From NCBI RefSeq assembly GCF_030268965.1, contig NZ_BSSE01000013.1:67642-131641 (forward strand): a stretch of DNA of 64,000 nucleotides, in the 5' to 3' direction. Shown here piece by piece: positions 3,549-13,386 of the stretch. The first letter of the stretch is position 1, and the number at the start of each line of letters is the position of its first letter. The notes below the pieces were generated by a model. That model saw only the letters and a list, made by a program, of their open reading frames with translations. It made no database searches and was not told where the DNA came from. Origin of the DNA: Microtetraspora sp. NBRC 16547 (lineage in GTDB: Bacteria; Actinomycetota; Actinomycetes; Streptosporangiales; Streptosporangiaceae). Position numbers and translations under genes: made by a program.

Positions 3549-4640
3549 ATGAAGATAGATGTCATTCGTCCCCGTGACCTGGGACCGTCGGAACGAGTGG
3601 CCTGGCGGGCCATGCGGCGGGCCCACCCGCACCTGGCGAGCCCATGGCTCGCCCCGGAGTTCACGATCGAGGTCGGAGAGGTGCACGACGGCGCCCGCGT
3701 CGCCGTCATCTCCGAGGGAAACGAGGTGATCGGCTTCCTCCCCTTCGAGAGCACCGGATTCCGTACGGCACGGCCGATCGCCGCGTGGATCACGCTCGCG
3801 CAGGGTCTGGTGCACGCGCCTGGGGCCGAGGTGGACCGGCGCGACCTGCTCAAAGGATGCGGACTCGACGTTTTCGAATTCGAATACCTGGTGGCCGACC
3901 AGCCCTGGTTCGCGTCGGGGGCGACAAAACAGGCAATGGTGCTCGATCTGACGGGCGGCTATGACGCTTACCGCGCGTTCCTCAAGGAGACGTCGCCGAA
4001 ATCGTTTAAGACACTTCGCTATAAAGAGCGCAAATTAGAACGTGATCTCGGTCCGATCACCTACGAGTACGACGTACGCGATTCCCGGCAGTTCGCGCTG
4101 CTGATGAAGTGGAAGTCCGACCAGTTCCAGCGGATCGGCCGTACCGACCGGACGGCGGTGCCCTGGGTGGCGGAACTCATCGACCGGCTCCACCTCCTGC
4201 GCGGCGACGACTTTCACGCTCCTCTTTCCATGCTCTACGCGGACGGGCGCCCCGTCGCCGGGCATTTCGGGCTGATCAGTGAGAACGTCATGGCGGGCTG
4301 GTTCCCCGCGTACGACCCCGAGCTGGGCGGCTACTCCCCCGGCCTGGTGCATCACCTGCACCTGGCCGAGGCGGCGGCACGGCGGGGGCTGCGGCACATC
4401 GACACCGGAACCGCCGGGGACTACAAGCAGACGATCTGCAACGGCACGTTCCCCCTGTCAGAAGGCGTCGCCCGCCGCCCCTCCCCGGCCGCCGGGCTCC
4501 ACTGGCTCCGGCACACACCGGTCCGCCGCGCGCGCCGGCTCGTCCTCGACAGCCCCCGCCTGTACGGCATCGCCGACCGCGTGCTGAAGACCCGCGCCCG
4601 CCTGCGGAACGGCCGGGGTGAGAAGGGAGGCGACCGGTGA
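3549..4640 (+). CDS. CelD/BcsL-type GNAT-fold acyltransferase (first of a tandem pair)
   Basis: A 363-residue protein of the large CelD/BcsL-like family (FemAB-related double GNAT fold) that commonly lies in exopolysaccharide and lipid-conjugate clusters and transfers acyl or aminoacyl groups. Landmarks shared with its neighbour are the MKWKSDQF segment, LYADGRPVAGHFG, GWFPAYDPELGGYSPG, and a C-terminal DxGTAGDYKQ stretch resembling the acyl-donor site of the family. Codon 163 (4035-4037) is TTA, a very rare leucine codon in such GC-rich genomes, and the surrounding bases (about 3985-4080) use AT-rich codons. The stop overlaps the GTG of the next gene by 4 nt. The specific donor and acceptor are unknown. 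Confidence 0.75.
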   Translation: MKIDVIRPRDLGPSERVAWRAMRRAHPHLASPWLAPEFTIEVGEVHDGARVAVISEGNEVIGFLPFESTGFRTARPIAAWITLAQGLVHAPGAEVDRRDLLKGCGLDVFEFEYLVADQPWFASGATKQAMVLDLTGGYDAYRAFLKETSPKSFKTLRYKERKLERDLGPITYEYDVRDSRQFALLMKWKSDQFQRIGRTDRTAVPWVAELIDRLHLLRGDDFHAPLSMLYADGRPVAGHFGLISENVMAGWFPAYDPELGGYSPGLVHHLHLAEAAARRGLRHIDTGTAGDYKQTICNGTFPLSEGVARRPSPAAGLHWLRHTPVRRARRLVLDSPRLYGIADRVLKTRARLRNGRGEKGGDR

Positions 4641-5737
4641 AGATCGAGGTGGTCCGCCCGGGAGAGCTGGGCCCCGCCGAGCTGGCGCGGTGGCAGGAAC
4701 TGCACCGGTCCCACGCAACCCGTCCCAACCCGTTCCTGTCCCACGAGTTCGTCAGGGCGGTCGGCGAGGTACGGGACGACGTCTTCGTGGCCGTGGTCGG
4801 TGACGGCTCCGGCATCGCGGGCTTCTTCGCCTTCGAGCGGCACCCGAGAAAGGTCGGCAAGCCGGTCGCGGCGGGCCTGACCGACCTCCAGGGCATGGTC
4901 TACGCGCCGGACCTGGAGCTGGACCCCCGGTCGCTGCTGCGCGCCTGCGACCTGGCCGTCTGGGAGTTCGACCATCTCGACCCCGGCCAGCCGATGTTCT
5001 CCGCGCACCACAAGGCGCTCCACCCATCGCCGGTCATCGATCTCAGCGACGGCTACGAGGCGTACGCCAAGGATCTCGCCGAGCGGTCGAACAAGATCTA
5101 CAGATCGACCCTCAAGAAGGAGCGGCGCCTGGCCCGGGAGGAGGGGGAGATCCGCTTCGAGTTCGACTCACCGGACGGGGACGCTCTGCGCACGCTGACG
5201 CGGTGGAAATCGGCCCAGTACCGCCGGACCGGGCGGCAGGACCGGTTCGCCGAGCCGTGGGTCGTCGCCCTGATCGAGCGGCTCCACGAGACGAGCACCG
5301 GCGTGTTCGCCGGAACCCTCGGCCTCCTCTACGCCGGGGACCGCCTCGTCGCCGGGAACTTCGGTGTGAGAACCGAGGAGGTGCTGATCGGCTGGTTCCC
5401 GGCCTACGACGTCGAGTTCGCCCGCTACTCCCCCGGCCTCATCCACCGGCTCCGGCTCTGCCGCGCTTCGGCCGACGCCGGGATCACGCTGATGGACCTC
5501 GGCCGCGGCGAGAAGAGCTACAAGCACAGCCTGAAGAACGGCGAGCTCCTCGTCGCCGAGGGCCGGGTCGCCCGGCCCTCACTGGCCGCCGCCGCCCATT
5601 GGGCGGCGCACGAACCGAGGCGGCGCTTCACCGGCCTCGTCCTCGGCACACCGATCCTCTACCGGACCGCCGATCGCGCCGCCAAGTGGCTGGGGGCCCG
5701 GCGGACGGCCGCATCAGGGCCGGCGGCCGAGGACTGA
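4637..5737 (+). CDS. CelD/BcsL-type GNAT-fold acyltransferase (second of a tandem pair)
   Basis: A 366-residue paralogue of the preceding protein, starting with a GTG inside the GTGA overlap. Collinear motifs are TRWKSAQY, LYAGDRLVAGNFG, GWFPAYDVEFARYSPG and DLGRGEKSYK, so the pair arose by tandem duplication. Unlike the first copy, this one shows uniform GC-rich codon use and no TTA codon. Such pairs may add two groups in succession, as Fem-type transferases do; that is inference. The gene ends 27 bp before the convergent mshC stop, with only a short GC-rich inverted sequence between. Confidence 0.75.
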   Translation: MKIEVVRPGELGPAELARWQELHRSHATRPNPFLSHEFVRAVGEVRDDVFVAVVGDGSGIAGFFAFERHPRKVGKPVAAGLTDLQGMVYAPDLELDPRSLLRACDLAVWEFDHLDPGQPMFSAHHKALHPSPVIDLSDGYEAYAKDLAERSNKIYRSTLKKERRLAREEGEIRFEFDSPDGDALRTLTRWKSAQYRRTGRQDRFAEPWVVALIERLHETSTGVFAGTLGLLYAGDRLVAGNFGVRTEEVLIGWFPAYDVEFARYSPGLIHRLRLCRASADAGITLMDLGRGEKSYKHSLKNGELLVAEGRVARPSLAAAAHWAAHEPRRRFTGLVLGTPILYRTADRAAKWLGARRTAASGPAAED

Positions 5738-5764
5738 GCCGCCACGGGCCCGCCGCCGGCTCGG

Positions 5765-6976
5765 CTACAGTTCGACGCCGAGCAGCGCGTCGGCGACGTC
5801 CCGGACGAGAGCCGGAGCCTCCGTGTCCGTTCCTTCTCCAGCGGCCCACTGATCGATCACCCGAAGGGCTTCCGGCGCGTTCAGGTCGGCGGCGATCAGC
5901 TCCCTGACCCGGTCGAGCACGGCCCGTCCGTCCGGCCCCGAAGGACGCGCGACGGCCGCCCACCACCGCGCCAGCCTGGCCTCGGCCTCCGTGAGCTGGT
6001 CCGGGGTCCACTCCCAGTCGGCCCGGTAGTGCCGGTCCAGGAGCGCGAGCCGTACGGCCATGGGGTCGGCGGACCGCCGCAGCTTGGAGACGAAGACGAG
6101 GTTGCCCTTGGACTTGGACATCTTCTCGCCGTCGAGCGCGACCATCCCGGCGTGCACGTACGCGCGGGCGAACGGCCACTCGCCGGTCGCCACGTGTCCC
6201 TCGCACGCGCCCATCTCATGGTGCGGGAAGATCAGGTCGGAGCCGCCGCCGGCAACGTCGAACCCGGTGCCGAGGTTGGCCAGCGCGATCGCCGTGCACT
6301 CGACGTGCCAGCCGGGACGGCCCGGCCCGAACGGCGAGGGCCACGACGGCTCGCCGGGACGGTGGCCGCGCCACAGCAGCCAGTCGAGCGGGTGGCGCTT
6401 GCCCTCGCGGCCGGGGTCGCCGCCGCGCTCGCCGAACAGTTCGAGCATCCGCTCCTCGGGGTAGCCCGACACGGCGCCGAACTTGGGCGCGGCCGCAACC
6501 GAGAAGTAGACGTCGTCGTCGAGGCGGTAGGTGGCGCCCCGGTCGCCGAGCCGGGCGATCAGCTCCGCGACCTGGTCGATGACCTCGGTCACGCCGACGT
6601 ACTCGCGGGGCGGGATGATCCGCAGCGCCTCCATGTCGGTGCGGAAGAGCTCGATCTCACGCTCGGCGAGCTCCTGCCAGTCGACCCCTGTCGCCTCGGC
6701 ACGCTCCAACAGGGGATCGTCCACGTCCGTGGCGTTCTGCGTGTAGTGAACTCCGTGGCCGGCGTCCCGCCACGCCCGGTTCACCAGATCGAAGGCGAGA
6801 TAGGTGTTGGCGTGTCCCAGGTGGGTCGCGTCATAGGGCGTGATGCCGCAGACGTACAGCCTGGCCTCGCTCTGCGGCCTGGTCGGGCTGACCTCGCGTG
6901 TGGCGGTGTCGTACAGACGCAGGGGAAGGCCCGAACCGGGGAGCCTGGGGATGTTCGGAGCAGACCACGATCGCAT
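5765..6976 (-). CDS. mshC: Mycothiol ligase MshC (cysteine:glucosaminyl inositol ligase)
   Basis: MshC joins cysteine to GlcN-inositol using ATP in the penultimate step of mycothiol synthesis, and it derives from cysteinyl-tRNA synthetase. The 403-residue protein has the HIGH-type motif THLGHA (51-56) and KMSKS (285-289). Zinc-ligand candidates are Cys43, Cys227 and the His pair at 252-253. It lacks the tRNA anticodon-binding C-terminal domain, which separates it from CysRS, and the [12 protein letters not shown] segment is MshC-like. I chose the ATG at 6974-6976 because it matches the family's N-terminus and length; an open frame runs further upstream but has no family-like sequence. It is the last gene of a minus-strand run that starts with uppP. 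Mycothiol production is a strong marker of Actinobacteria. Confidence 0.95.
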
Positions 6977-7073
6977 GCCCCCGAGCCTATCCGCGCCGCG
7001 GAGAGCTCGGATCACCCGGGCGGTTATCGACATATCTCCCGGCCGACTGCCGATCACCGTCCGGCGACGCCGG

Positions 7074-7814
7074 TCATCCCGTCTCGACCTGATGCCAGGA
7101 CGTGGGGTCTCCCGGAACGGGGCAGAAGTCGTAGCGGACGCCCTCGTCGGCCAGGGCGACCAGCGTGATCGAGAGGGACGCGAAGATCTGGCCGCCGTCG
7201 AGCACCCGCCGGAACACCAGGGCCCGGGGATCATTCAGGGGCAGCCCGTCCCCCGACGCCGGCGGCAGCCATTCGCCCCAGAACCTGCGGATGGACCCGG
7301 AGCCCATTCGCGCCGGGCGCGCGGCCGCCGCGAAGCGGGGCCGGAACAAGGCGACGCGCGGGTCGTCCTCGCCTCGCTCCCAGCCGCTGTTGACGATCAT
7401 GTGCACGCCCGCGGGGAGCTTGTCCTCCGTCACCTGATCGCCGTTCCAGCTCCACAGCCGGACGCCGTCGAGGCCGCCCACGACGAGATGGAAGGGGTCA
7501 TAGGCGGTGAGATCGAGCCGTGGCAGTTCTCCCGCGGCGGCGGCGCGCAGCGGCAGGTCGCCCCGCGTGCGGCGGAGGTCCTCCGGCGCCGCGCTGCCCT
7601 GTCCGTTCAGCAGGGCGGCCACCCGCCGGCCCGCCGGGTCGACGGCCAGCCACGTGCCACCCGCCCGCAGATCACGCCCGCCGATCAGACCGGGATGGTC
7701 GGGCCAGTGGCGTGCGGGCGACATCCACGGCCGCGACACGAACTCGTCCCTGACGCCCGCGAGGAGCACCGGCACCCGAGCCTCGGGCGCCACGCTCACG
7801 ATCACCGTACACAA
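7074..7814 (-). CDS. NRDE-family protein (TANGO2-like)
   Basis: A 246-residue member of the NRDE/TANGO2 family, whose bacterial members have an Ntn-hydrolase-like fold but no settled function. The family normally starts Met-Cys, with Cys2 as the presumed nucleophile. The TTG at 7812-7814 gives exactly that (MCTVIVS) and is preceded by GGAGG at a good distance, so I prefer it to the ATG 33 nt upstream. Family-like pieces are [16 protein letters not shown], the internal NRDE-position segment, and [12 protein letters not shown]. It sits between mshC and the kinase-like gene on the same strand. An acyl or thioester hydrolase role would be conjecture. Confidence 0.78.
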
Positions 7815-7893
7815 TGCCCGTTCCCTCCAGGATCGGTAGAGACTCATGCAGAGTGCATGGTTTTGAACGATCTGCGCAAGTCACCGTGATGTC

Positions 7894-8655
7894 TCAGATC
7901 GGCGGCCACGGAACCGCCGGCCAGTCCTCTGACGGGTACGGATGGACCCCGGCGTCGAGCAGCCGCCGGACCCGCTCCCACGTGGCCTCCACCTCAGCCT
8001 GGGTGAGGAGCTCGCGCAACCGGCGCCCCAGGCGGCCCCGGTCGATCTCGCGCTCAAGGTGCACCAGGACGGAGACCGCCTCGCGGGAGAGAGGATTGCC
8101 GCGCCACTGCCACAGCACGGTGCGCAGCTTGTCCTCCACCGCGAAGCAGACCCCGTGGTCGACGCCGTAGATGTGCCCGTCGATCAGCGGCAGCAGGTGC
8201 CCGCCCTTGCGGTCGGCGTTGTTGACGACGGCGTCGAAGACCGCCATCCGGCGCAGCTCGGGGGTCCGGCCGCGGATCAGGGCCAGAAGGTCGACGTCCG
8301 GATCGGTGTCGATCCAGAGCTGGACCATGCCGGGCCCGAACGGCCCGTCGCGGTAGACCGTCGGCGGGACGATCCGCCAGCCGGTGGCCGCCGCCACCTC
8401 GTAGGCCGCGACCTCGCGGGCGGCCAGCGTGCCGTCGGGGAAGTCCCACAGCGGCCGCTCGCCGCGGACCGGTTTGTACACGCAGGCGGCCACGAGCTCG
8501 CCCAGGCGCACCGAGCAGTAGAGCGTCATGTTGCTGGCCTCGACCAGACGCCCGGCCACGTCGAGGGCCCCATCGCGCAGCAGCCGGAGCGCCGTGGCGT
8601 CGTCCAGGCCGGCGCCGCCCTCCACGCTGACGGCCGGATCGCTCTCCGCTGTCAT
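7894..8655 (-). CDS. SCO1664-family protein, distant relative of phosphatidylinositol kinases
   Basis: A 253-residue member of the actinobacterial SCO1664 family, which is distantly related to phosphatidylinositol 3/4-kinases and HipA-type kinases. Visible kinase-like elements are a putative ATP-contacting lysine in VYKPVRGERP, a catalytic-loop-like segment DAVVNNADRKGGH, and a metal-site-like GVDHGVCF. A C-terminal helix-rich part ends WPAVPWPPI. It is immediately followed on the same strand by an NRDE gene and preceded by DUF3090 and a phosphomutase-like gene. The three together form a conserved trio of unknown function in Actinobacteria, in which this is the presumed kinase. The substrate (protein, lipid or sugar) is not known. 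Confidence 0.88.
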   Translation of the reverse strand: MTAESDPAVSVEGGAGLDDATALRLLRDGALDVAGRLVEASNMTLYCSVRLGELVAACVYKPVRGERPLWDFPDGTLAAREVAAYEVAAATGWRIVPPTVYRDGPFGPGMVQLWIDTDPDVDLLALIRGRTPELRRMAVFDAVVNNADRKGGHLLPLIDGHIYGVDHGVCFAVEDKLRTVLWQWRGNPLSREAVSVLVHLEREIDRGRLGRRLRELLTQAEVEATWERVRRLLDAGVHPYPSEDWPAVPWPPI

Positions 8656-8725
8656 CCGGCCCCCCTGCCAAGCACGCTGCCCGGCCCGTCGCCCGACCCG
8701 CTCCCGTGCCTACCGATCCGTTCGC

Positions 8726-9292
8726 TCACGCCGACATGCCCCCGGGGTGGTGACCGTTGAGACGGGCGCAGATATGCCCTTCAGGCTCGAGGGGCTGCCC
8801 GCACAGCGGGCACGGCGGGCGGCCGGCGGCGACGAGGTCGAGTGCCCGGCGGCTGAAGGCGCGGGCGGCGGCGGGGCTGATCCGCACCCGCAGGACCGCC
8901 GGCTCGATCCCGGTGGCCTCGAAGTCCTCGTCCTCCTCCTCGGCTGCCGTGGCCTCCTGCGCCTCGATGATCACTTGTGAGGTCTCGGGGTCCCACGCGA
9001 GCGCCATGGTGCCGACCCGGAACTCCTCGTCGATCGGCAGGTCCAGCGGGGCGTCGTCGGCGAGTTCGGCCGGCGCGGTGGCCGGGACGGGCGCGCGGCC
9101 GCCGGTACGGCGCAGCACCTCGTCGAGCAGTTCGTCGAGCCGGTCGGCGAGCACGGCGACCTGGAACTTCTCGAGCGCGACGGTGGTGACCCTGCCCTGA
9201 CCCCGGGCCTGCAGGAAGAAGGCCCGTGCTCCCGGTTGCCCAACGGCACCGGCCACGAACCTGTCAGGCGGATCGTAGTCGAAGACCGGCAT
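8726..9292 (-). CDS. DUF3090-family protein with C-terminal zinc ribbon
   Basis: A 188-residue protein of the DUF3090 family, found almost only in Actinobacteria. It starts MPVFDYDPPDRF, has an acidic middle (EEEDEDFE) and ends with a likely zinc-binding knuckle (CPLCGQPL, then HIC about ten residues later). It lacks recognisable catalytic motifs, so it may be an adaptor or a substrate of the adjacent kinase-like protein. It lies 9 nt after the phosphomutase-like gene and 70 nt before the kinase-like gene, all on one strand. This is the least understood member of the trio. Confidence 0.88.
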   Translation of the reverse strand: MPVFDYDPPDRFVAGAVGQPGARAFFLQARGQGRVTTVALEKFQVAVLADRLDELLDEVLRRTGGRAPVPATAPAELADDAPLDLPIDEEFRVGTMALAWDPETSQVIIEAQEATAAEEEDEDFEATGIEPAVLRVRISPAAARAFSRRALDLVAAGRPPCPLCGQPLEPEGHICARLNGHHPGGMSA

Positions 9293-9301
9293 AACCCGAC
9301 C

Positions 9302-10009
9302 TTACGTGGTCCCGGGTCCGCCGCCCACGGCGGCATCGCTCCCGGTGAGGTTTTCTCCCCCGTCGTGGTTCTCCGGAACCTCGCTCGGCGGAGCCAGATC
9401 TGCCACGTCTCCGCCGACGTCGTTGAGCCTGAGCAGGAAGGGGCGCAAAGGGGTGTAGCGGATCACGGTAAGCGACGCGGGATAGGCGGTGATCCGCTGG
9501 AACTGGTCCAGGTGGAGCCCGAGCGCGTCGGCCACGATGGCCTTGATCACGTCACCGTGGGTGCAGACGGCGTAGGTCGCCTTCTCGCCCAGCCGGTCGT
9601 TCCACTCCCGCACCGCGCGCACCGCCCGGCGCTGCACCTCCGCCAGGGCCTCCCCGCCGGGGAAGACCACCGCGCTCGGGTGGGCCTGCACGACCTGCCA
9701 GAGCGGCTGGCGGACCAGGTCCTCGTAGGGCACCCCGGTCCACTCGCCGTACCCGCACTCCTCGAACCGGTCGTCGGTCGCGACCTCAAGGACGCGCTGC
9801 TGGCGGGACGCCACGGCCTGGGCGGTCTCCTGGCACCGCTCCAGCGGGCTGGACACGATCGCGTCCAGCTCCAGCGGGGCCAGCCGCGCGGCCACCGCCT
9901 CGGCCTGGGCACGACCGCGTTCGTCGAGATGGACGCCCGGCGTCCGCCCGGCCAGCGCGGAGTCCGTCATCGCGGTGAGGCCGTGCCGCAGGAGCAGGAG
10001 GGTCGTCAT
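9302..10009 (-). CDS. Histidine-phosphatase-superfamily protein, MSMEG_4193-type probable phosphomutase
   Basis: A 235-residue protein with the phosphoglycerate-mutase superfamily signature: LLLLRHG at the N-terminus supplies the phospho-accepting His, SPLERCQETA follows, and CTHGD holds the second catalytic His. It is the MSMEG_4193 type, part of the conserved actinobacterial trio with a PI-kinase-like protein and DUF3090. The context has been taken to mean a phosphomutase or phosphatase acting on the kinase product. The C-terminal tail of about 30 residues is acidic and Gly-rich and probably disordered. The ATG at 10007-10009 starts right at the motif and overlaps the uppP stop by 4 nt. Confidence 0.88.
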   Translation of the reverse strand: MTTLLLLRHGLTAMTDSALAGRTPGVHLDERGRAQAEAVAARLAPLELDAIVSSPLERCQETAQAVASRQQRVLEVATDDRFEECGYGEWTGVPYEDLVRQPLWQVVQAHPSAVVFPGGEALAEVQRRAVRAVREWNDRLGEKATYAVCTHGDVIKAIVADALGLHLDQFQRITAYPASLTVIRYTPLRPFLLRLNDVGGDVADLAPPSEVPENHDGGENLTGSDAAVGGGPGTT

Positions 10010-10824
10010 GAAGAGATCACGCCCAGCGAGAGGAGCGTGAGCAGGAAGGTGCCCGCGAAGACCCGGTAGATCACGAACACGATGGTCGAATGCTTGGCGA
10101 CGTAACGCAACAGCCAGGCGATCGAGGCGTACCCGACGACGAACGAGACGAGGGTCGCGATCGCGGTCGGCACCGGGGCCACCCCTCCCCCGTCGCCGAT
10201 GTGGCGCAGTTCGAACAGGCCGGACAGGACCACCGCGGGGACCGACAGGAGGAACGAGTAGCGCGCCGCGGCCTCGCGCGTGTAGCCGAGGAACATGGCG
10301 CCGGTCATGGTGGACCCGGACCGGGAGGCGCCGGGGATCAGGGGCAGCATCTGCCAGGCGCCGATGATCAGGCCGTCGCGCAGGCCGAGGTCGGCGACCT
10401 CCTTCTTCTTCCTGCCGATCTGGTCGGCGGTGAGCAGCAGGAGGCCGAAGAGGATGAGCATGCTCGCGTTCAGCCACAGGTTGCGCGCCGGGCCCTCGAT
10501 CGCGTCCTTGAACAGCAGGCCGGCCACACCGATCGGGACCGTCCCGAGGCCGATGTACCAGCCCATCCGCGCGTCCAGGTGACCGCGCAGGTCGGGGGTC
10601 CACAGGCTGCGCAGCCAGGTCCAGAGGATCCGTACGATGTCGCGCCAGAAATAGATCAGCACCGCGAGCATGGTGCCGAGCTGGATCACGGCGGTGAAGG
10701 CGGCGCCGGGGTCGTTCCACCCCAGCAACTTCGGCACGATCAGCAGATGCGCGGAGCTGGAGATCGGCAGGAATTCGGTGAGGCCCTGCACGATCCCGAG
10801 CACGATGGCCTGGAGAGAGTCCAC
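10006..10824 (-). CDS. uppP: Undecaprenyl-diphosphatase UppP (BacA)
   Basis: An integral membrane enzyme that removes the terminal phosphate of undecaprenyl diphosphate so the lipid carrier can be reused for peptidoglycan and other envelope glycans; it gives bacitracin tolerance. Signatures are TEFLPISSSAH near the N-terminus and PGASRSGST in the second half, with about eight hydrophobic segments. I place the start at the GTG at 10822-10824 (272 residues) because the family begins a few residues before EAIVLG or QAIVLG. A TTG 45 nt upstream would overlap the divergent reductase gene and adds no family sequence. It is the first gene of the run towards mshC. Confidence 0.93.
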   Translation of the reverse strand: MDSLQAIVLGIVQGLTEFLPISSSAHLLIVPKLLGWNDPGAAFTAVIQLGTMLAVLIYFWRDIVRILWTWLRSLWTPDLRGHLDARMGWYIGLGTVPIGVAGLLFKDAIEGPARNLWLNASMLILFGLLLLTADQIGRKKKEVADLGLRDGLIIGAWQMLPLIPGASRSGSTMTGAMFLGYTREAAARYSFLLSVPAVVLSGLFELRHIGDGGGVAPVPTAIATLVSFVVGYASIAWLLRYVAKHSTIVFVIYRVFAGTFLLTLLSLGVISS

Positions 10825-10832
10825 GATGGGCC

Positions 10833-10868
10833 AGCTTAAACGGTCCGACACGCTAATCTGGCCTGACA
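10833..10868 (+). promoter_or_regulatory. Possible leaderless promoter of the aldo/keto reductase gene
   Basis: TAATCT at 10854-10859 fits an actinobacterial -10 (TANNNT), and the ATG of the reductase follows 9 nt later at 10869, so the transcript may begin at or near the start codon. No ribosome-binding site precedes that ATG. The -35 is not clear (TTAAAC at about 10836-10841 is the best option). Confidence 0.4.
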
Positions 10869-11807
10869 ATGGATCAGCGACTTGTCGGGCGCAGCGGTCT
10901 CTCGGTGTCCCGGGTGGGGCTCGGCACGATGACCTGGGCCCGCGACACCGGGGCTGAGGAGGCGACCGCTCAGCTCACCGCGTTCGTCGACGCAGGGGGC
11001 ACGCTGATCGACACGGCCGACGTCTACGGGGGCGGCGACGCCGAGCTCCTGATCGGCCGGCTGCTGCGGGACGTGGTGCGCCGCGACGACCTCGTCATCG
11101 CGACCAAGGCCGTGCTGACGGCCGACGGCGGCCGCGACGCGTCCCGGCGGCACCTCATCCGCGCCCTGGACGCCTCCCTGTCGCGGCTGGGGCTGGACGA
11201 TGTGGACCTCTGGCAGCTCCACGCCTTCGACCCCGACGTTCCCCTTGAGGAGACGCTCGCCGCCGTCGATCTCGCGGTCTCCACGGGCCGTACGGCCTAC
11301 GCCGGGGTGTGCGACTACGCGGGGTGGCAGCTCGCCGCGGCGGCGGTGTGGCAGCGTTCGGGCGACTCCCGGGCCCCCATCGTCTGCGCCCAGGCGGAGT
11401 ACTCCCTGCTCGCCAGGGAGCCCGAGCAGGAGCTGCTCCCGGCCGCCGGGCACGTCGGCGCGGGCTTCCTCGCGTGGTCGCCGCTGGGCCGGGGCGTGCT
11501 GACGGGCAAGTACCGCACCGGCATCCCCGCGGACTCCCGCGCCGCGACGCCGCACTTCGCCGAGTTCGTCACGCCGTACCTCGACGAGCGCTGCCGCAGG
11601 ATCGTGGAGTCGGTGGCGACGGCGGCCGACGGCCTCGGCGTGTCGCCGCTCGCGGTGGCCCTCTCCTGGGTCCGCGACCGGCCGGGCGTGTCGTCCGCCG
11701 TCGTCGGCGCGCGCACGCACGCGCAGCTCCTCGGTGTCCTCCAGGCCGAGAAGCTCACCCTCCCGTGGGAGATCCGCGAAGCCCTGGACGACGTCTCCGA
11801 CTCCTGA
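10869..11807 (+). CDS. Aldo/keto reductase
   Basis: A 312-residue NADPH-type aldo/keto reductase with a TIM barrel. The catalytic tetrad is visible as Asp in DTAD, Tyr in DVYGGG, Lys in ATKAVL and His in WQLHAFD. The cofactor-binding C-terminal part has SAVVGARTHAQL. It resembles the general-stress or YajO/Tas group, which reduces aldehydes and ketones of broad range, so no physiological substrate can be given. It lies divergently from uppP. The ATG at 10869 is the only sensible start and may be leaderless. Confidence 0.9.
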   Translation: MDQRLVGRSGLSVSRVGLGTMTWARDTGAEEATAQLTAFVDAGGTLIDTADVYGGGDAELLIGRLLRDVVRRDDLVIATKAVLTADGGRDASRRHLIRALDASLSRLGLDDVDLWQLHAFDPDVPLEETLAAVDLAVSTGRTAYAGVCDYAGWQLAAAAVWQRSGDSRAPIVCAQAEYSLLAREPEQELLPAAGHVGAGFLAWSPLGRGVLTGKYRTGIPADSRAATPHFAEFVTPYLDERCRRIVESVATAADGLGVSPLAVALSWVRDRPGVSSAVVGARTHAQLLGVLQAEKLTLPWEIREALDDVSDS

Positions 11808-11808
11808 G

Positions 11809-11833
11809 GCGGCCTGCTCCCGGCTGAGGCCGC
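11809..11833 (+). terminator. Small hairpin after the aldo/keto reductase gene
   Basis: GCGGCCT (11809-11815) pairs with AGGCCGC (11827-11833) around an 11-nt loop, starting two bases after the stop codon. No T-run follows, so it is at best a weak factor-assisted terminator. Confidence 0.35.
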
Positions 11834-12120
11834 GCGCCATGTCCCGGCCACGGGCCCGCTCAAAAACGAGAGTTCTTCTCACGTATCACGCGTCGATACC
11901 GAATCGCAACTTTCGGCGAAAAATCCGGGCGCATGGGAAAAGAGTGGGTGCCGTAGGGAGTGTCCGGCACATGCCGCTCATCACGTTCGCGAGCCCGGGT
12001 CGCCGCCCGCCAGTACGGCGTGGCGAGGCGTCGCTCCGGTCCGCGCGCGGCGGGGCGGGAGTCGCCGGACACGACCGACGCGCGGGCAACGACGATTCCG
12101 GGTTTTGGGAAGGGGAGCAT
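11834..12120. other. Gene-free stretch upstream of the repeat protein
   Basis: I see no supportable gene. About 11862-11935 is AT-rich for this genome and is the likely promoter area of the gene starting at 12121. A GGAAGGGGAG ribosome-binding site lies at about 12108-12117. I looked for a cyclic-di-AMP riboswitch, which often precedes cell-wall genes in this phylum, and could not align its conserved core. Confidence 0.5.
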
Positions 12121-13386
12121 ATGGAGATCGGACGTCATACGTCTGCGATCTCTGCCGGCGCGCTGGCGGTGGCCCTCAGCGTGGGAGTCCCCCTGCTGGC
12201 GGCCGAGCCGGCGCAGGCGGCCGACTGCACGGGGGGCGGGCTGCTGTCCGGCGTGACCAACGGCCTGTGCTCGGTGGTCAACGGCGTGACCGGCACGCTG
12301 GACACCGCGACCGGCGGGGCCACGTCAGGGCTCAGCGGCGTGGTCGACAACACGGTCGGCGGGCTGACCGGAACGGTGAACGGCACGGTCAACGGCCTGA
12401 CCGGCACGCTCGGCAAGACGGTGAGCGGCGTGACCGGAACGGTCGGCGGGCTCACCGGCCCTCTCAACGGCACGGTCAGGGGGCTGACCGGCACCCTGGG
12501 TGACACGGTCGGCGGGCTGACCAACACCCTGGGCGACACGGTCGGCGGAGTGACCAACACTCTCGGCGGCACCGTCAAAGGTGTCGGCGACACGCTCGGC
12601 GACCCGGTCAAGGGTGTCGGCGACACGCTCGGCGGCACGGTCCAGGGCGTCGGGGACACGCTCGGCGGCACCGTCAAGGGCGTCGGGGACACAGTGAACG
12701 GCGCGGTCACGGGTGTTGGCGACACGCTCGGCGGCACCGTCAAGGGCGTCGGGGACACAGTGAACAACACAGTGGACAACACCGTGAACGGCGCCGGCGG
12801 CACGGGATCGCCCGGAGGCGCCGTCGGAGGCGCCGTCGGGGGCGCCGTCGGGGGCGCGGTGAACGGCGCGGTGAACGGCGCGGTCAACCTGACGGACGGG
12901 CTGGCGCAGACCGTCGGGGGCGCGTGTCTCCCCGTGGTCGGGAGCACGCGCTGCGATCCCTCCGAGGGCAGGGCGACTAAGCCGTCCGGCGGCGAGGAGA
13001 GCCGGCCTGGCACGGTCCAGGGCGAGGCGAGGGACGGCACCCTCCCGATCGAGCCCACCCGGCCGCCGGAGAACCGGCCGAACTTCATCGACGGCAAGCC
13101 CATCCGTCCGGCGGATCTGTCCATAAACCCGGACGACATGGGCATTCCGCTGCTCTGGCCGGGGCAGTACGTCCCGGGCCTCGCCACTCACATGAAGGGT
13201 GAGGCGATCGGGGGGCACCGCCCGTACGACGGGATGGAGACGGCGCTGACCGCGGCGCTGCTGCTGTCGGCCGTGCTCGCCACCCGTGTGGTGTCGGCGC
13301 GCCGCGCCCGCGCGAACCTGCCGGAGTCGATGCCGTTCGAAGGAATACGGCTCACCGGGTCTCCCGGTCGCCACCGCATCGCCTGA
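12121..13386 (+). CDS. Secreted, membrane-anchored protein with tandem 11-residue repeats
   Basis: A 421-residue protein I do not recognise. A signal peptide covers about residues 1-34 (hydrophobic core, then AEPAQAA). Residues 75-224 consist of about fourteen 11-residue units of the form [LV]-G-x-T-V-x-G-[LV]-[TG]-x-T, the later ones almost identical (GTVKGVGDTLG type). A Gly-Ala-Val tract follows (about 232-254), then four prolines-rich turns and a linker. A hydrophobic helix near 370-386 followed by SARRARAN would anchor it with the C-terminus inside. Cysteines at 36, 50, 269 and 278 could form disulfides flanking the repeats. There is no LPxTG sorting signal. The ATG at 12121 has a strong ribosome-binding site. 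A cell-surface or aerial-structure role is inference. Confidence 0.75.
   Translation: MEIGRHTSAISAGALAVALSVGVPLLAAEPAQAADCTGGGLLSGVTNGLCSVVNGVTGTLDTATGGATSGLSGVVDNTVGGLTGTVNGTVNGLTGTLGKTVSGVTGTVGGLTGPLNGTVRGLTGTLGDTVGGLTNTLGDTVGGVTNTLGGTVKGVGDTLGDPVKGVGDTLGGTVQGVGDTLGGTVKGVGDTVNGAVTGVGDTLGGTVKGVGDTVNNTVDNTVNGAGGTGSPGGAVGGAVGGAVGGAVNGAVNGAVNLTDGLAQTVGGACLPVVGSTRCDPSEGRATKPSGGEESRPGTVQGEARDGTLPIEPTRPPENRPNFIDGKPIRPADLSINPDDMGIPLLWPGQYVPGLATHMKGEAIGGHRPYDGMETALTAALLLSAVLATRVVSARRARANLPESMPFEGIRLTGSPGRHRIA
12340..12793 (+). repeat. 33-bp tandem repeats coding the 11-residue units
   Basis: The gene body holds about fourteen in-frame 33-bp units, diverged at the 5' end and nearly identical from about 12560 to 12770, which suggests recent expansion by unequal recombination at that end. 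Confidence 0.8.

Follow-up and report, generated by a model that had tools for sequence, protein, structure and literature searches.

A conserved kinase, DUF3090 and histidine phosphatase gene trio as a candidate reversible-phosphorylation module in Actinomycetota and Chloroflexota

INTRODUCTION

The protein families TIGR03843 (SCO1664 family), TIGR03847 (DUF3090) and TIGR03848 (MSMEG_4193 family) are catalogued without a function, yet 68 of the 149 genomes sampled from the phylum of Streptomyces contain their genes as a trio. What this trio does is the question raised by a locus of Microtetraspora sp. NBRC 16547, situated in a 64,000-nucleotide stretch of contig NZ_BSSE01000013.1 (positions 67,642 to 131,641), hereafter the window. 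An earlier reading of this DNA, the original prediction, took the trio for a candidate undescribed system, possibly performing a phosphorylation cycle tied to mycothiol, inositol or undecaprenyl metabolism. The genes and motifs concerned, in window coordinates, are as follows:

9302..10009, minus strand: histidine phosphatase of family TIGR03848 (MSMEG_4193 family; NCBIfam match), 235 amino acids (aa)
8726..9292, minus strand: DUF3090 protein (TIGR03847), 188 aa, with a putative tandem bbbba fold and a C-terminal CxxC-HxC motif
8768..8812, minus strand: putative zinc motif CPLC...GHIC of DUF3090 (C161, C164, H173, C175)
7894..8655, minus strand: kinase of family TIGR03843 (SCO1664 family), 253 aa, predicted minimal atypical kinase of the type II phosphatidylinositol 4-kinase (PI4KII)/FAM20 type
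8197..8223, minus strand: catalytic-loop motif NNADRKGGH, kinase residues 145-153
8152..8160, minus strand: DHG motif, kinase residues 166-168, judged from the fold to be the probable equivalent of the metal-binding DFG motif

The explanation favored here, with a probability of about 0.55, is that the three genes encode a self-contained module for reversible phosphorylation, comprising a kinase, a phosphatase and DUF3090 as an adaptor or regulator, and that its acceptor is most likely a protein.

RESULTS

Conservation of the trio in Actinomycetota

The window proteins scored above the curated cut-offs of all three NCBIfam families: 336.3 bits for the kinase (cut-off 172.4), 246.6 bits for DUF3090 (cut-off 117.25; Pfam PF11290, E 3.5e-69) and 297.5 bits for the phosphatase (cut-off 203.85; PF00300, E 2.7e-49). 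The window locus is an ordinary member of the catalogued trio, with nothing different at the family level; NCBI's own notes presumably already describe the three families as a trio. The stop/start distances given in the original prediction, 9 nt from phosphatase to DUF3090 and 70 nt from DUF3090 to kinase, are correct.

Family profile searches of 149 Actinomycetota genomes, with the phosphatase counted at E <=1e-40, found the kinase, DUF3090 and the phosphatase in the same 68 genomes; the phosphatase was also detected weakly, below the cut-off, in five more. The genes follow each other on one strand in the order phosphatase, DUF3090, kinase in 66 of the 68 genomes, and in G084 and G095 the matches lie on different contigs. 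Fragmented kinase matches were joined manually, and two DUF3090 fragments (G095 C14 and G080 C1:1171543) were excluded. Because the three genes share the same 68 genomes and the same order in 66 of them, their linkage exceeds chance, and the predicted conservation of the trio as a unit holds. A second set, obtained by scanning genome contigs, comprised 78 named Actinomycetota loci, taken from the best 80 matches (two from Chloroflexi) of at least 590 and leaning to close relatives; of the 76 loci with room for DUF3090 upstream of the kinase, 75 have it there, and 74 of 75 have the phosphatase.

The trio in Chloroflexota

Among 151 Chloroflexota genomes, again with the phosphatase counted at E 1e-40, the kinase was found in 84 (82 over the curated cut-off), DUF3090 in 99 (52 over the cut-off) and the phosphatase in 46 (25 over the cut-off). 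Kinase and DUF3090 were shared by 79 genomes, kinase and phosphatase by 36. Genes were regarded as adjacent if no more than 1.5 kb (3 kb for the phosphatase, which was listed for kinase genomes) separated them on one strand of a contig. By this definition DUF3090 precedes the kinase in 48 of the 84 kinase genomes, follows it in 5, lies elsewhere in 26, a count that takes in contig breaks, and was not found in 5, while the phosphatase is present at the locus, upstream, in 23. DUF3090 was identified in 33 of 42 fetched Chloroflexota regions (31 by the count based on open reading frames alone).

A DUF3090 tree of 103 rows was built from the window, loci L031-L070, the Chloroflexota regions, every eighth of L071-L150 and 20 loci with DUF3090 away from the kinase; one row, L205, sits on a very long branch. 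The three fetched loci with inverted order, kinase before DUF3090, form one clade in this tree (support 100/100). Two gene orders thus exist, the inverted one confined among fetched loci to one clade, and therefore the adjacency of kinase and DUF3090 survived rearrangement. Co-occurrence and gene positions in Chloroflexota show that kinase and DUF3090 are the tighter pair, the phosphatase being a looser third member. Independent scattering of the genes in relatives, named beforehand as a result that would speak against a common system, is absent from Actinomycetota and is seen in part in Chloroflexota, where DUF3090 lies within 1.5 kb of the kinase in 53 of 84 genomes.

The kinase

The predicted fold of the kinase gave whole-domain matches to PI4KII/FAM20-type kinases, with PI4KII the nearest among the matches listed; each fold comparison reported here covers the best 50 matches or fewer, and the absence of a family from them is no evidence. 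The sequence profile of the kinase matched FAM20A, PI4KA and PI4K2B at E 0.0014-0.023, and the window protein matched the Pfam family PI3_PI4_kinase (PF00454) with 20.9 bits (E 3.8e-4), below the gathering score of 27.1. The two motifs pointed out earlier, NNADRKGGH and GVDHGV, are both present. In the kinase alignment K61 and E81 were found in 161 of 161 rows and, among rows with a residue, D148, R149 and D166 in 160 of 160 and H153 in 158 of 160. K61 is assigned as the beta-3 lysine, E81 as the alpha-C glutamate, D148 as the catalytic and D166 as the metal-binding residue, on the basis of motifs and predicted fold, not of a residue-level structural superposition.

The trio kinase differs from its apparent relatives in several respects. 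PI4K2A/2B, which are type II phosphatidylinositol 4-kinases, have a 451-residue chain compared with 253 aa here. The last position of the PI4KII catalytic loop is Asn, whereas the loop of the trio kinase ends in His (DRKGGH). FAM20A/B/C are animal kinases of the secretory pathway, unlike the bacterial trio kinase. Asp299 of FAM20B, an analogue for the catalytic-loop motif, is the catalytic base according to PMC5865150.

A toxin-antitoxin reading of the HipBA kind was rejected, as the kinase in the window, unlike HipA/CtkA, is flanked by DUF3090 and a TANGO2/NRDE gene, with no HipB-like antitoxin. A search for viral copies returned nine pattern matches and no relatives. Within the limited literature searched, no published function was found for the kinase or DUF3090.

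DUF3090

The zinc-knuckle-type motif that had been noticed at the C-terminus of DUF3090, CPLC...GHIC, is present and may bind zinc. In an alignment covering both phyla, among rows with a residue, C161, C164 and C175 occurred in 147 of 147 and H173 in 146 of 147. The protein is acidic, with a median isoelectric point (pI) of 4.5. PUR-alpha topped both fold comparisons among the matches listed, and we propose that DUF3090 may be a small PUR/Whirly-like protein with a zinc-type tail. It differs from PUR-alpha and Whirly in its acidity and its additional CxxC-HxC tail, and has no significant sequence similarity to them.

Three further ideas on DUF3090 were examined. As a direct phospho-substrate of the kinase it makes a weak candidate, since it has no invariant Ser, Thr or Tyr and its best column, T37, is Ser or Thr in 139 of 148 rows. 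A loss of DUF3090 in Frankia was rejected, since both genomes carry the gene at a place other than the trio locus. A 901-aa open reading frame with a terminal DUF3090 (L234), in which no other domain was found, is probably a spurious long frame and was not used.

The histidine phosphatase

The defining features of branch 1 of the histidine phosphatase superfamily are all present in the family: an RHG-type motif, a second Arg and a C-terminal catalytic His. Among alignment rows with a residue, R8, H9 and R58 were found in 128 of 128 and H151 in 129 of 129, and the catalytic His residues, one in RHG and a second His, are intact in the window protein, as predicted. The closest solved structure is 4ij5, phosphoserine phosphatase 1 (E 2.4e-17), and the nearest solved relatives, PspA, PhoE and CobC, are all phosphatases. 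After TIGR03848 itself, the NCBIfam ranking continues with alpha-ribazole phosphatase and acid phosphatase, and phosphoglycerate mutases come lower.

Judged from gene numbers, Rv2135c probably belongs to TIGR03848 and to the trio. Rv2135c is a characterized histidine phosphatase; as described by Coker et al., it is an acid phosphatase with a pH optimum of 5.8 and weak activity on small phosphates, without mutase activity and inactive on 3-phosphoglycerate (PMC3866925). PMC11329110 lists Rv2134c in a table of rifampicin sensitivity. The NCBIfam name of TIGR03848, "putative phosphomutase", and the same label in the original prediction are at odds with the solved relatives, the NCBIfam ranking, the Rv2135c assay and the PTP-type neighbor described below, by all of which the family reads as a phosphatase.

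DUF3090 away from the kinase

We inspected 20 regions in which no kinase adjoins DUF3090. Fifteen kinase-less Chloroflexota genomes, of 20 such genomes in all, contributed one region each, and the other 5 regions come from four genomes that carry the kinase at another place. In six regions (L217-L221 and L230), five from kinase-less genomes and one from G219, which has its kinase elsewhere, a gene for a PTP/DSP-type protein with an invariant CMGGVGRTG directly follows DUF3090. Two of the six proteins, scanned with Pfam, matched PTP-SAK (E 9e-11 and 4e-11), and matches in the libraries scanned were to general phosphatase models only; the nearest solved structure is SsoPTP (E 8e-14). The DUF3090 proteins of the six loci form one clade (support 100/99) nested among those of the kinase-linked, trio type, and therefore the pairing was probably a single event, kept since. 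It speaks for a link of DUF3090 to phospho-chemistry independent of the kinase, and for a phosphatase rather than a mutase in the trio.

Neighboring genes

The genes flanking the trio in the window are as follows:

10006..10869, minus strand: uppP, undecaprenyl-diphosphatase, upstream neighbor (NCBIfam, 349 bits; cut-off 308)
7074..7847, minus strand: TANGO2/NRDE protein gene between the kinase and mshC (Pfam TANGO2, E 1.8e-18)
about 5765..6973 (start codon approximate), minus strand: mshC, mycothiol ligase (TIGR03447, 628 bits; cut-off 485)

The order of transcription on the minus strand is uppP, phosphatase, DUF3090, kinase, TANGO2/NRDE and mshC, with a 4-nt overlap between the end of uppP and the start of the phosphatase gene. 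A scan of positions 5600-11000 found three terminator-like sites, with 0.9 expected, and no promoter-like ones; this result was not used. Elsewhere in the window, a predicted 550-aa open reading frame at 11734-13386 (plus strand) contains tandem 33-nt units of the GGTVKGVGDTL type at 12352-12888 and could encode a secreted repeat protein. Two similar-looking, overlapping tandem frames, 3549-4640 and 4637-5737, occupy positions 3549-5737 of the plus strand, the first matching the GNAT domain Acetyltransf_6.

Neither the lipid-carrier phosphatase nor the NRDE gene proved to be a conserved partner. An undecaprenyl tie had been suggested by the proximity of uppP; of 69 named loci with room for this gene, 16 have it no more than 600 nt from the phosphatase gene, and the NRDE gene adjoins the kinase in 21 of 72. 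The mycothiol gene mshC gave a different picture. Curated mshC was detected in 12 of the 149 Actinomycetota genomes (the sample surveyed for MshA, MshC and prcB alike), all 12 with the trio, and 11 of them have it on the same strand, no more than 1 kb downstream from the kinase; in the named Actinomycetota loci it is within 7 kb in 60 of 65. According to PMC4255298, SCO1664 is invariably linked to mshC, and its authors suggest a functional link. This linkage holds broadly in the class Actinomycetes and not for the whole family, as 56 of the 68 trio genomes are without curated mshC; the trio is not restricted to genomes with curated mshC, which number 12 of the 68. The mycothiol tie of the original prediction thus stands as a real neighborhood in this class, and the trio is not a part dedicated to mshC. 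Likewise, "undescribed" applies to the function and not to the families, catalogued in NCBIfam, or to the SCO1664-mshC linkage, reported in PMC4255298.

An MshC-like protein (368-446 bits, below the cut-off of 485) without curated MshC was found in 16 genomes (G134, G016, G129, G102, G113, G031, G140, G086, G145, G069, G080, G091, G013, G118, G042 and G039), 15 of them with the trio and none near it; the remaining cysteinyl-tRNA-synthetase-type matches reach <=345 bits. These 15 are among the 56 trio genomes without curated mshC, and 41 of the 68 have neither form.

Of the 68 trio genomes, 61 have an MshA-like protein (E <=1e-90, a threshold of our choice, with <=11 candidates scored per genome for most genomes), compared with 5 of the 81 others; the counts at the curated cut-off are 27 and 0. 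Ino1 was found in 65 of 68 and also in 42 of 81 others. The gene of the 20S proteasome beta subunit, prcB, was detected in 64 of 68 trio genomes (all except G006, G024, G063 and G139) and 3 of 81 others, a 32-bit match (G100) being dropped and one below the cut-off (G117) kept; in the genome of the window it lies 58 kb from the trio (C13:17299-17958). As prcB tracks the trio as well as MshA does, such phyletic matches are not specific, and the co-distribution of both with the trio probably reflects lineage.

In five loci of the class, mshC is flanked by a gene cluster of which the single member scanned is PAC2. Outside the class, annotation of 20 representatives of the larger neighbor clusters, and of 10 in a second round, gave no common pathway, since neighbors vary by family: Pst/PhoR-type proteins and Ogt, ETF, RecO, PALP/thiolase, acetyl-CoA synthetase, Ppx, homoserine dehydrogenase, methylmalonyl-CoA mutase, Hsp70 and others.

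DISCUSSION

A phosphorylation cycle is the best reading of the trio because the genes form a conserved unit, the kinase-like protein has intact active-site residues and a phosphatase accompanies it. This part of the original prediction is retained with moderate confidence; its undecaprenyl tie is not. The minimal PI4KII/FAM20-type kinase would transfer phosphate from ATP to an acceptor, as its predicted fold and residues suggest, and the histidine phosphatase, not acting as a mutase, would remove it, opposing the kinase on one substrate, in line with its family and the Rv2135c assay. DUF3090, the usual partner of the kinase, may serve as an adaptor or regulator presenting the acceptor to the enzymes, a role suggested by gene linkage. 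The weak activity of Rv2135c on small phosphates and the PTP-type neighbor lead us to lean to a protein acceptor; a saccharide or an inositol glycoside is less likely. FAM20B, which acts on a saccharide and is paired with a histidine phosphatase, PXYLP1, offers an analogy by which a saccharide could be the acceptor, and the MshA pattern would allow an inositol glycoside.

Several observations weigh against this explanation. Within the limited literature searched, no kinase activity of the family was found reported, and a narrower kinase alignment (A3) weakened the FAM20A match to E 0.16. The sequence profile of DUF3090 found no solved relative (best E 0.16), and its fold match barely exceeds the stated background of the tool (best Z typically 7-8). 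In Chloroflexota, 47 of the 99 DUF3090 matches are below the curated cut-off, and 20 genomes have DUF3090 without a TIGR03843 kinase. No TIGR03848-type phosphatase was found at E 1e-40 in 48 of the 84 kinase genomes, where a phosphorylation cycle would therefore need another phosphatase. Of the 20 regions with DUF3090 away from the kinase, 14 have no kinase or phosphatase (profiles at E 0.1) and no PTP neighbor; six of these carry a 2-hydroxyacid dehydrogenase-type gene upstream of DUF3090, and the few neighbors scanned in the 14 include, besides this dehydrogenase, transporters, a B12-binding protein and others. Finally, in Corynebacterium glutamicum, included as a named control, kinase and phosphatase score above the cut-offs and no DUF3090 match was found at E 1e-3, and G008 contains, besides a full trio, a second kinase-phosphatase pair with a 55-nt gap and no DUF3090 (C17:152948-154262, L060); DUF3090 is therefore not always needed.

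An alternative close to the original prediction takes inositol, GlcN-Ins or a phosphoinositide as the substrate of the kinase, whose activity would then tune mycothiol or phosphatidylinositol metabolism. The position of mshC (within 1 kb downstream in 11 of 12 class members, within 7 kb in 60 of 65 loci), the link suggested in PMC4255298, PI4KII as the nearest fold among the matches listed, and the MshA and Ino1 counts are all consistent with it. We nevertheless regard it as unlikely, as curated mshC accompanies 12 of 68 trios and 41 genomes lack even the MshC-like form, Ino1 is also found in 42 of 81 non-trio genomes, the kinase is common in Chloroflexota, annotated neighbors outside the class differ by family, and prcB tracks the trio equally well, so that the phyletic match is not specific. 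The trio might instead constitute a two-step small-molecule pathway, in which the kinase phosphorylates a metabolite, a phosphomutase moves the phosphate and DUF3090 is a pathway subunit. The fixed gene order and the family name "putative phosphomutase" agree with such a scheme, but the nearest solved relatives and the higher-ranking NCBIfam matches (alpha-ribazole and acid phosphatases above phosphoglycerate mutases) make it improbable, as do the acid phosphatase activity of Rv2135c without mutase activity on 3-phosphoglycerate (PMC3866925), the PTP-type phosphatase beside DUF3090 in one clade, and the lack of the phosphatase gene at the locus in 61 of the 84 kinase genomes from Chloroflexota (contig breaks included).

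The distribution of prcB (64 of 68 trio genomes, 3 of 81 others), its distance of 58 kb in the genome of the window and the PAC2-containing cluster beside mshC in five class loci bring to mind protein quality control with the Pup-proteasome, for example phosphorylation marking or protecting proteasome clients. Four trio genomes have no prcB match, however, three prcB genomes have no trio, and the two distributions may reflect nothing more than shared lineages, which leaves this a slim prospect. Hardly to be expected is a nucleic-acid function in which DUF3090, as a single-strand binder of the PUR/Whirly type, would recruit both enzymes to the ends of RNA or DNA: PUR-alpha does come first in both fold comparisons among the matches listed, but the median pI of DUF3090 is 4.5.

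The reversible-phosphorylation module therefore remains our preferred explanation. Our survey shows that the trio does not require curated mshC and that, in Chloroflexota, the kinase is linked more closely to DUF3090 than to the phosphatase. It also puts forward a fold for DUF3090 and reveals a second type of phosphatase that can adjoin this protein's gene. Of the genomes sampled, 68 of 149 in Actinomycetota and 79 of 151 in Chloroflexota contain both kinase and DUF3090. Tentatively, and with more doubt than confidence, they might represent a further class of bacterial phosphorylation besides the two-component and Hanks-type systems, combining a PI4KII/FAM20-type kinase, a PUR-fold zinc adaptor, an exchangeable phosphatase (histidine type in many genomes, PTP type in one clade) and one dedicated acceptor, possibly a protein or a saccharide. 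If true, bacterial signaling would gain an atypical kinase cycle.

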